Shown here one piece after another: positions 27,812 through 29,698 of a DNA stretch of 46,688 bases. Made by a program: the position numbers and the translations under genes. Where the stretch lies: assembly GCA_003166795.1 (NCBI GenBank), contig PMUS01000012.1, positions 41,009 to 87,696 on the forward strand, in the 5' to 3' direction. This DNA comes from Acidobacteriota bacterium. GTDB taxonomy: Bacteria; Acidobacteriota; Terriglobia; Acidiferrales; UBA7541. Each line of letters begins with the position of its first letter. Within the stretch, counting starts at the first letter, position 1. Below the pieces are notes generated by a model. It ran no database searches. It was not told the DNA's origin and saw nothing but the letters and a program-made list of their open reading frames with translations.

Positions 27812-28774
27812 TCAGCGCCTCGCGAAGTAAAACATCAAGCCAAAGATGATGATCGGGATCAACGCCAGCATTATGTAAAAGAGGAGCTTGCGCACCCAGG
27901 GCGTGCGCCGTGTCTTCCAGTCGTGTAATTCGGGGCGCTCCGCGGCTCCCACCTTCTCGGGATGTTGGAGATCGAGAGCCATTTCGTGGGCGGAGGCGTA
28001 ACGGTTCTTGGGGTCGCGCTCGGTCGCGCGATAGATAATCTCCTGCAGCTCCGGCGAAATCGAAGGATCGATTTCGCGAGGCGGAATGGGGTTATTCAGA
28101 AGCCGGTCGTTCATTATGGCAAAGGGATTCGGCCCCTGAAACGGGGCTTGGCCGGTTAGCATCTCGTAGAGCATCACTCCGAGCGCGTAGACATCGCTAC
28201 GGGCGTCGCCGCGCTTGCCCTTGACCTGTTCGGGAGAGATGTACTCGGGGGTCCCCATCACCTGCGAAAGCTTCGCAAATGTCAGCCGCCGCGCTCCGGC
28301 CTGGCCGGCAATGCCGAAATCAATCAATTTGATGTGATCCTCGGGATCCACCATGACGTTTTCCGGCTTCAGGTCGCGGTGCACGATCCCGTGAGTGTGA
28401 ATGTAGTCGAGGGCGTCGAGGATGCCGAGGGCGATCTTTATGGCGCGTTCCGGGGGTAGCTTCTTATGCTCGTCGAGAATCTTGCGCAGGAGGCGGCCTT
28501 CGACCCACTCCATGACCATATAAAGCTGGCTACGGTCGTCATCCGTAAAGACTTTCATTACGGCCGGGTGATCTAGGACTTTACCGATCTCTTGCTCGCG
28601 ATGGAAACGATCGAAGAGAACCGGGTCCATTTCCATCTCGGGATGGGGGACCTTGATGGCGACGTGGCGGCCGTTCCGGAGATCTGTCCCGCGAAAAATA
28701 GAGGCCATTCCGCTGCGGGCGGCAACGCTGTCAATGCGGTAGTGATCGAGTTGGTCGCCGGGGTGGACTGGAAT
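27812..28774 (-). CDS. Membrane-anchored Ser/Thr protein kinase with no standard start codon
   Basis: Kinase motifs are complete if counted from ATT 28774 (320 residues): invariant K41 (VAIK), catalytic HRDLKPEN with D134, DFG D152, and SPEQ. One hydrophobic helix (about 296-316) ends the protein, so the catalytic domain faces the cytosol. The first ATG (28708) would begin inside the nucleotide loop (GMASIF), removing the first strand. In-frame sequence upstream encodes that strand (PGDQLDHYRIDSVAARSG) but has no ATG, GTG or TTG back to the TAG of the PP2C gene. The only candidate is ATT 28774, with no good SD. This could be a rare ATT start, a lost start (pseudogene), stop-codon readthrough from PP2C, or a sequence error. 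The phosphatase gene directly ahead is the likely antagonist. Confidence 0.85.
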   Translation of the reverse strand: MPVHPGDQLDHYRIDSVAARSGMASIFRGTDLRNGRHVAIKVPHPEMEMDPVLFDRFHREQEIGKVLDHPAVMKVFTDDDRSQLYMVMEWVEGRLLRKILDEHKKLPPERAIKIALGILDALDYIHTHGIVHRDLKPENVMVDPEDHIKLIDFGIAGQAGARRLTFAKLSQVMGTPEYISPEQVKGKRGDARSDVYALGVMLYEMLTGQAPFQGPNPFAIMNDRLLNNPIPPREIDPSISPELQEIIYRATERDPKNRYASAHEMALDLQHPEKVGAAERPELHDWKTRRTPWVRKLLFYIMLALIPIIIFGLMFYFARR

Positions 28775-28819
28775 CCTCGAGAGTGCGGACCTGGCAGAGG
28801 ACCGGCGGCAAGCCCGGCG

Positions 28820-29698
28820 CTAGGGAAGCCTATAGGGTCGCCCGCGGTACATGCCTACGCGTTCAACGCTGCGAACGCGGATCAAATGCAGGCTGATATT
28901 ATCACTACCGTCTCGCTGGTTGGCAATATCCACCAACCGGCTTGCCGCCGTTGATAAGTCACCTCCGTGGCCGGCCAGTGCCGCCATTTCCGACGCTTCC
29001 ACTGAGCCATGTAGACCGTCGGAACAAAGCAACAGCACATCACCTTCGAACACCTGGTGTTCGTTGACTTCGACGTTGACGGCCAGTTCATTTCCCAGCG
29101 ACCGGCTAAGCATGTGTCGGGTTTCAGCCTCGGCTGCATCTTCTTTCGAGAGCAGTTTCAGTCGGACATGTTCGTTGGCGACGGTATGGTCGCGGGTGAG
29201 AACGTTCGGTTGCCCTCGGCGGATCAGATAACAGCGCGAATCGCCCACGTGGGCGACGGCGACGCGATCGTAGCGCAGGGCGCAGGCCACAATTGTGGTC
29301 GCCATGGCGATGCCGCCGGACTTGGCCGCATGACCGGCATCAATCACGCGCGTGTTTGCGGTCCGCACCAGGCGCGTTAGCAGGGAAGCGTGCGGCTCGC
29401 CTGGCGTCGATTCGCGAAAACCGGTCAGCACGCTTTCAATCGCCGTATGCGACGCCACTTCTCCAAGATCGTGCCCGCCGACTCCATCTGCTAGGGCAAA
29501 CAGCCAGCCGCGCGCGCGTGCGTCCTCCGTCGCGGCGGGCGCCGCGTGCCCGAGGCAATCCTCATTCCCCTGGCGAACTCGCCCGACGTCAGAAAGCTCC
29601 GCGAACTCGACATCCATAGAATCGTTTTGGGCCGGGCGATACGCCGGGGCATTACCGCCGACACCTGCCGCCGCTGCCGCTTGAAGACCTCTGTACAT
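28820..29698 (-). CDS. PP2C-family protein phosphatase
   Basis: 292 residues from ATG 29698; ATG 29617 (MDVEFAELSDVGRV) is an alternative that removes a low-complexity leader. Neither has a convincing SD. The metal-dependent phosphatase motifs are in order: GNEDCLG (44-50), ADGVGGHDLGE (D71), AHVGDSRCYLIRRG, CSDGLHG (D227) and GSDNIS (D266). It should remove phosphate from Ser/Thr residues set by the adjacent kinase. Its TAG at 28822-28820 is in the same frame as the kinase, with no intervening stop. It follows a strong terminator of the upstream permease gene, so it probably has its own promoter. Confidence 0.92.
   Translation of the reverse strand: MYRGLQAAAAAGVGGNAPAYRPAQNDSMDVEFAELSDVGRVRQGNEDCLGHAAPAATEDARARGWLFALADGVGGHDLGEVASHTAIESVLTGFRESTPGEPHASLLTRLVRTANTRVIDAGHAAKSGGIAMATTIVACALRYDRVAVAHVGDSRCYLIRRGQPNVLTRDHTVANEHVRLKLLSKEDAAEAETRHMLSRSLGNELAVNVEVNEHQVFEGDVLLLCSDGLHGSVEASEMAALAGHGGDLSTAASRLVDIANQRDGSDNISLHLIRVRSVERVGMYRGRPYRLP

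Follow-up and report, generated by a model that had tools for sequence, protein, structure and literature searches.

Genes and Features at the Phosphatase–Kinase Junction

The window, i.e., the whole stretch of 46,688 nucleotides that was analysed, comes from an acidobacterial genome of 3.92 Mb in 115 contigs (G000), and carries on its minus strand a PP2C-type Ser/Thr phosphatase gene followed by a Hanks-type Ser/Thr kinase gene. The features of this junction are the following:

28820..29698, minus strand: PP2C-type Ser/Thr phosphatase gene (Pfam PP2C_2 1.1e-13, PP2C 2.4e-13), with stop TAG at 28822-28820
28775..28778, minus strand: GAGG, a Shine-Dalgarno-like (SD) motif made of the last base of codon 10 and codon 9, where the ATG of the outgroups stands
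28772..28774, minus strand: ATT, the start candidate of an earlier sequence-only reading, and in the present reading part of the probable spacer between SD and start
28766..28768, minus strand: GTC (codon 6), the putative non-canonical start, 6 nt after GAGG and at the onset of conservation
27812..28768, minus strand: Hanks-type Ser/Thr kinase (Pfam Pkinase 1.4e-51), which a start at GTC 28768 would make 318 codons long
28706..28708, minus strand: first in-frame ATG, the Met of SGMASIF, within the nucleotide loop and an unlikely start

Codons are numbered backwards from the first L of LDHYRI, which is codon 0, whereby ATT 28774 is codon 8, GTC 28768 is codon 6 and ATG 28708 is codon -14. The GTC sits 51 nt past the PP2C stop. 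The letters of the junction agree with the sequence-only reading, in that the PP2C gene ends, exact to the base, at the TAG it had named, with the kinase in the same frame, the 37 in-frame codons from 28819 to the ATG at 28708 are all open and include no ATG, GTG or TTG, and ATT does stand at 28774-28772. Kinase similarity upstream of the ATG at 28708, which it had also claimed, was confirmed as well, as GDQLDHYRIDSVAARSG aligns with the N-terminal part of PknB and contains strand beta-1 of the AlphaFold2 model.

The Hanks-type assignment is based on the PF00069 match, on the alignment and on the structural model, the kinase having VAIK, HRDLKPEN and DFG, the motifs of this kinase type. The best PDB matches are PknB chains (4e-58), aligned from DQLDHYRI on, and the best NCBIfam model is PknB_PASTA_kin, with 317.6 bits against a cut-off of 450, over profile positions 8-288 of 563. 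Assignment as a PknB/Stk1 PASTA kinase (NF033483) was considered and rejected, with the score below the curated cut-off and PASTA repeats absent; the 317 residues leave no space for such repeats, and the alignment and the AlphaFold2 model present a C-terminal hydrophobic helix. This model (mean pLDDT 79.2), for which 17 sequences were used as input (10 from the genus, four from outgroups and three paralogues), places beta-1 at residues 9-17, before Met20, which is encoded by ATG 28708. For the phosphatase, the best NCBIfam model is Stp1_PP2C_phos, at 198.3 bits and under its cut-off of 230.

Absence of a Nearby ATG across the Genus

Twenty members of the genus were searched, including the window genome, and the PP2C orthologue was found in 12 of them (E <= 6.3e-120). 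The kinase follows the phosphatase in 11 of these, and in the twelfth (G075) the contig ends after the first five kinase codons. A nearby ATG is missing in all 12 members with the pair (in G075, as seen for the first five codons only), and none of them has ATG, GTG or TTG at codon 6, the coding onset. Seven members lack ATG, GTG and TTG all along the open frame that precedes codon 6, while the other five carry a GTG or TTG at codons 10-22, never an ATG, with no SD energy below -2.4 kcal/mol. One member (G062), which also has the weakest SD motif and an assembly gap inside the kinase, contains none of ATG, GTG, TTG, CTG, ATT, ATC, ATA, ACG or AAG in its open upstream frame.

Among the outgroups, on the other hand, every one of the 55 kinase loci has a standard start in frame a short way ahead of the domain, ATG in 53 and TTG in two. 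These loci represent 53 genomes, of which G229 and G292 provide two loci each, and comprise nine genomes of the family (L023 ends before the kinase) plus 46 of 51 class-level loci, five of which had no kinase match; the 51 come from the upper part of a longer match list. Further outgroup loci from named contigs, some of them from the same genomes, agree on this start pattern, and in two loci of Bryobacterales (L045 and L046) a TTG stands exactly at codon 6. Where an outgroup reads, for example, GCG CTC GCG ATG (L016), the genus reads GCN CTN NCG AGG or near to it. Codon 9 is AGG in group A (nine sequences), with AGA in one, and in group B (three sequences) a spacer difference of 2 nt shifts the motif. 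Judged from these alignments, the missing start is a conserved trait of the genus members with the pair.

The comparison of orthologous pairs at the ATT codon tells against ATT 28774 as the start, which the sequence-only reading had put forward. ATT is present in only three of the 12, namely G000, G080 and G071, the others having ACT, TTT, CGT, ATC, TCT, TCC or TTC, and it abuts GAGG without a spacer. Neither this ATT nor the continuity of frame with PP2C, seen in six of the 12, is a general feature of the genus.

Within the PP2C matches of one other genus, one TAG and one TAA were observed inside the aligned stretch (L239, G097:C20, and L243, G238:C182), and these stops may lie upstream of the true PP2C start.

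Onset of Protein-Type Conservation and the SD Motif

The divergence by codon position among the nine group-A sequences is 0.71/0.69/0.63 in codons 24 to 13, 0.36/0.19/0.24 in codons 10 to 7, 0/0/0.67 at codon 6, and 0.08/0.07/0.39 in codons 5 to -13, a pattern which indicates that protein-type conservation begins at codon 6, perhaps 7. Codon 6 is GTC in eight of the 12 genus members, GTT in two and GTA in two; codon 7 is CCN or TCN in all 12, so that coding could reach one codon further up. GTG accounts for 40.7% of the Val codons in the genome sample, yet it occurs at codon 6 in none of the 12, an absence that counts as weak evidence given that it reflects, by hand count, about four third-base changes.

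Upstream of this onset, amid diverged DNA, GAG is kept in all 12 members and GAGG in 11, G062 having GAGA. The motif lies 6 nt from codon 6 in group A and 8 nt in group B, i.e., 11 of the 12 have GAGG at a usable spacing from codon 6, the anti-SD being assumed to be standard. The predicted pairing of the window GAGG with the standard anti-SD is -5.9 kcal/mol, and on the assumption of a standard 16S tail the energies range from -5.6 to -6.6 kcal/mol in 11 of the 12, with -3.0 in G062. For 26 outgroup starts the mean SD energy is -1.2 kcal/mol, with one at -5.8, and of the 46 starts at class level, four reach -5.8 kcal/mol or lower. Given that the outgroups have an ATG with little SD and the genus has an SD without ATG, the absence of the one and the presence of the other go together. 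As a yardstick, a sample of the window genome contains 1758 internal codons of the types GTC, GTT and GTA, of which 28 are preceded by GAGG at a spacing of 6-8. When 152 starts of this genome were picked on coding potential, 44 carried an SD-like motif, so that SD is not the default here.

In L013 (G078), the SD motif shares bases with an ATG (GATGAGG) that is not in the kinase frame and opens an ORF of 42 codons.

Start-Less Paralogues of the Kinase

Two paralogous kinases also have no standard start before the domain, namely L099 (G000:C98:68009-68962), downstream of an ORF that matches a Na+/H+ exchanger domain, and L098 (G071:C21:244427-245380), which also comes after an ORF. They read TAAGGATTCGAA-ATT and TGAGGATTCCAG-ATT, with the ATT at codon 6, a spacer of 7 nt after [GA]AGG and an SD energy of about -6. 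An in-frame stop stands four codons before the ATT (codon 10), with only GGA TTC CAG/GAA in between and no NTG between stop and ATT, and the ATT with its strong SD is the sole start candidate seen in either paralogue. A start codon one mismatch away from AUG (AUH or CUG) is thus found as a candidate in these two, and at codon 6 in none of the 12 orthologues. The spacers of 6 nt, 7 nt (the two paralogues) and 8 nt are distributed one per reading frame, which fits an untranslated spacer.

Of the paralogue loci read, the other 14 have an ATG at codons 9-14. In five of these ATG-started paralogues (L100, L159, L160, L162 and L167) residue 6 is V or I, for which reason the GTN of the genus orthologues may be an internal valine; the codon is GTG in L160, L162 and L167, the three with Val at this residue. 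In the tree, which left out the G062 and G075 orthologues, L098 and L099 form one fully supported clade, and their branch groups with 10 of the 12 genus orthologues at weak support (89/90, drawn open). Given this weak support, the ATG may have been lost once, with regain in some paralogues, or lost several times. At the motif of L098, ATGAGG is found out of frame, with a stop after five codons.

Translation Initiation Elsewhere in the Genus

Of the 20 genus members, 18 yielded an infC gene (loci L199-L216). ATC opens the conserved IAER in 17 of the 18 copies (IPER and IADR in one each), L213 being the copy that the script did not resolve, and it follows a purine-rich SD-like stretch in all 16 copies whose DNA was read that far; some copies also have a GTG or TTG further upstream. 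As infC habitually uses a non-standard start, and with the SD-like stretch and the signs of conservation, ATC is the apparent start of the gene in this genus; it may serve as a positive control, one that annotation limited to ATG, GTG and TTG would mis-call.

A special initiator tRNA was considered and rejected. Among the 42 tRNA places in the window genome (92.9% complete), one with a GGG/CCC anticodon stem was flagged (L196), with CAU anticodon and, as read by eye, C1-A72; the result covers all of the 42 but one tRNA (Ala, TGC). A weak pair between positions 1 and 72 is a feature of initiator tRNAs. Read by eye likewise, a tRNA-Val(GAC) (L186, G000:C90:57379-57452) has A1-U72, and the other two Val tRNAs have G1-C72.

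Other start-less genes of the window genome were sought in a crude coding-potential scan of 205,688 bases (the window and eight further stretches), which gave 57 eligible ORFs. The best 25 of the 57 include the window kinase and five ORFs in which some SD-like motif precedes CTG or ATA as a near-cognate codon; one of these five encodes trigger factor and has an ordinary ATG start. Also among these best 25 is one ORF with GAGG 7 nt before a GTA, its coding onset lying further downstream.

Alternative Explanations

The main rival explanation is initiation ahead of codon 6, at some other rare or non-standard codon that may differ between species, with valine 6 internal. The candidates for such a start are the NCG at codon 10, the ATT at codon 8, a CTG at codon 11, and the GTG or TTG at codons 10-22, and it would agree with the V or I at residue 6 in the five paralogues with an upstream ATG, with the in-frame GTG or TTG of five of the 12 members, and, in group A, with codon 10, which is ACG, GCG, TCG or TTG in all nine sequences and aligns with the ATG of L100. 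This codon 10, however attractive in group A, was rejected, as it falls out of frame in group B and in the two start-less paralogues, and no candidate is shared by all. Moreover, the stops at codon 14 (G075), 18 (G071) and 10 (L098 and L099) leave little room, G062 has none of the nine tested codons upstream, codons 10 to 7 diverge like non-coding DNA, and the candidates of the frame scan are all without an SD energy below -3.2, although -4.7 was calculated before the GCG of L037. An upstream start is unlikely.

Recoding, either as a frameshift from a short upstream ORF or as bypassing from the PP2C stop, may also supply the kinase N-terminus or produce a fusion. SD-like motifs stimulate recoding, such a motif is present here, L098 and L013 have an out-of-frame ATG AGG at it, and bypassing needs no fixed frame. 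But no upstream ORF that enters the junction is common to the species, the last PP2C codons and the candidate landing codons present no co-variation by eye, and the consensus RNA structure of the junction receives no support, with a covariation term of +0.5 and two of 27 pairs changed on both sides, all of which leaves recoding with a slim chance.

A start at ATG 28708, without strand beta-1, is slimmer still. This is the first in-frame ATG, and all 11 genus orthologues with a contig that extends to codon -14 have it. It would nevertheless lie downstream of codons under strong protein-type conservation, the same Met is internal in the ATG-started outgroup orthologues, beta-1 would be lost according to the AlphaFold2 model, and L098 and L099 have no ATG at this point; the SD energy is -1.5 or weaker in 10 of the 11, with -5.8 in L035.

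Amber readthrough, proposed by the sequence-only reading and yielding a PP2C–kinase fusion of about 600 residues, is highly improbable. In the window, nothing except the TAG separates the joined frames. Across the 12 species, however, the kinase has three frame relations to PP2C (0 in six, 2 in five and 1 in one), the PP2C stop is TAG in eight and TAA in four, and further stops in the kinase frame are found in G071 (codon 18), G075 (codon 14) and G074 (codon 23). The near-equal divergence at the three positions of codons 24 to 13, at the level of non-coding DNA, means that the linker is not conserved as protein, and there is no conserved frame link to PP2C.

Finally, a wrong base call or a pseudogene that has lost its start, both raised by the same reading and conceivable for a genome in 115 contigs whose sequence is known here from the assembly alone, can be set aside as next to impossible, given that the same ATG is missing in 12 species and that the kinase keeps codon-type conservation, its nine aligned genus orthologues retaining the catalytic motifs and sharing 80-87% identity with the window kinase, so that, as far as sequence comparison goes, the missing start is neither error nor gene decay.

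A Probable SD-Led GUH Start

Three of the four options of the sequence-only reading are contradicted by these comparisons, and the fourth, a rare non-standard start, appears to be right in kind, though at another codon. The kinase probably starts in an SD-driven manner at GTC 28768-28766, rather than at ATT 28774, and this is the best single explanation. The kinase cistron would then be a separate gene with a non-canonical start codon. In the ancestor of the genus, an ordinary ATG, lying three codons ahead of codon 6 and having little SD, as in most outgroups, may have changed to AGG, which would have created GAGG with the preceding G. Ribosomes positioned by this GAGG would use the ordinary initiator tRNA to begin at GTC, GTT or GTA, 6 or 8 nt further on, which would give the product fMet-HPGDQLDHYRI and retain strand beta-1. 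Against this start, the CAU anticodon of the initiator tRNA is a poor match for GUC, GUU and GUA, and a single substitution would produce GTG.

Such a start would be weak and sensitive to IF3, and for this reason the output of the kinase would be low relative to the upstream PP2C. Plain coupling to PP2C is unlikely to suffice, since in an E. coli reporter re-initiation coupling was at background (<3%) with a gap of 40 nt (PMC2268962). In that reporter, GAGG raised the output of the coupled pair and, with the 40-nt gap, gave <10% of that (PMC2268962), so that even an AUG may yield little when ribosomes initiate independently at an SD of this kind. Independent initiation at the window kinase would likewise be modest, and, by analogy with the low output of non-canonical starts in S. 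aureus, the kinase would be made in small amounts that respond to IF3.

More tentatively, and with somewhat less than even confidence, the genus may have swapped an AUG with little SD for an SD-led GUH start on a regulatory kinase, kept weak, and for AUU on a paralogue. GUH (GUC, GUU or GUA) would then be a natural class of initiation, which would act here as a fixed attenuator, sensitive to IF3, and set the ratio of kinase to phosphatase.

Implications and Comparison with Known Systems

If this reading is true, gene finders limited to ATG, GTG and TTG, or to the starts of NCBI table 11, would truncate or drop such genes, and a mis-called start would remove the first strand of the window kinase. 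GUC, GUU and GUA would initiate naturally with the ordinary initiator tRNA, and a whole clade would have passed from an AUG with little SD to an SD without AUG, a swap that would be useful to test how SD strength offsets a poor start codon and in what way a signalling pair could be tuned by IF3 levels.

Initiation has reportedly been measured from all 64 codons, by Hecht in 2017. No report of a natural GUH start was found in the literature searched, outside which most subscription papers lie, nor of near-cognate start codons in Acidobacteria. In the same literature, the one paper matched for a GUC start codon is on haloarchaea, and the available part of PMC11497404 contains nothing bearing on GUC. 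In PMC2268962, initiation at GUC relied on a mutant initiator tRNA that carried the anticodon GAC. In E. coli cell-free systems, many of the more active non-AUG start codons had U as the second base (PMC13232202).

The arrangement resembles the gene pairs of PknB-type kinases with Stp/PP2C phosphatases, given that the PP2C and kinase genes are adjacent here too, but both window proteins score below the NCBIfam cut-offs and the kinase has no space for PASTA repeats. In E. coli, infC and pcnB have an AUU start that limits or autoregulates expression. The likeness to these two genes is a non-canonical start that limits expression, which is a proposal in the case of the window kinase. They use AUH, one mismatch from AUG, whereas the putative GUH start of the kinase is two changes from AUG, and here a protein kinase is encoded, with the SD occupying the position that ATG has in the outgroups.

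A further parallel is offered by S. aureus, where, according to PMC13009471, infC starts at AUA and non-canonical starts are also used by cvfC1 (AUU), ccpN (AUA) and citZ (AUA), as verified by ribosome profiling and reporters. In that text, infC, cvfC1 and ccpN have an extended SD, start and SD are conserved for cvfC1 and ccpN, and the reporters with non-canonical starts reach about 10% of AUG in poor medium, with ccpN at up to 30% in rich medium (PMC13009471). The window kinase would share with cvfC1 and ccpN a non-canonical start with an SD, conserved in relatives, and it differs from cvfC1, ccpN and citZ in that its start is proposed from sequence comparison, and in its codons, GUC, GUU and GUA.
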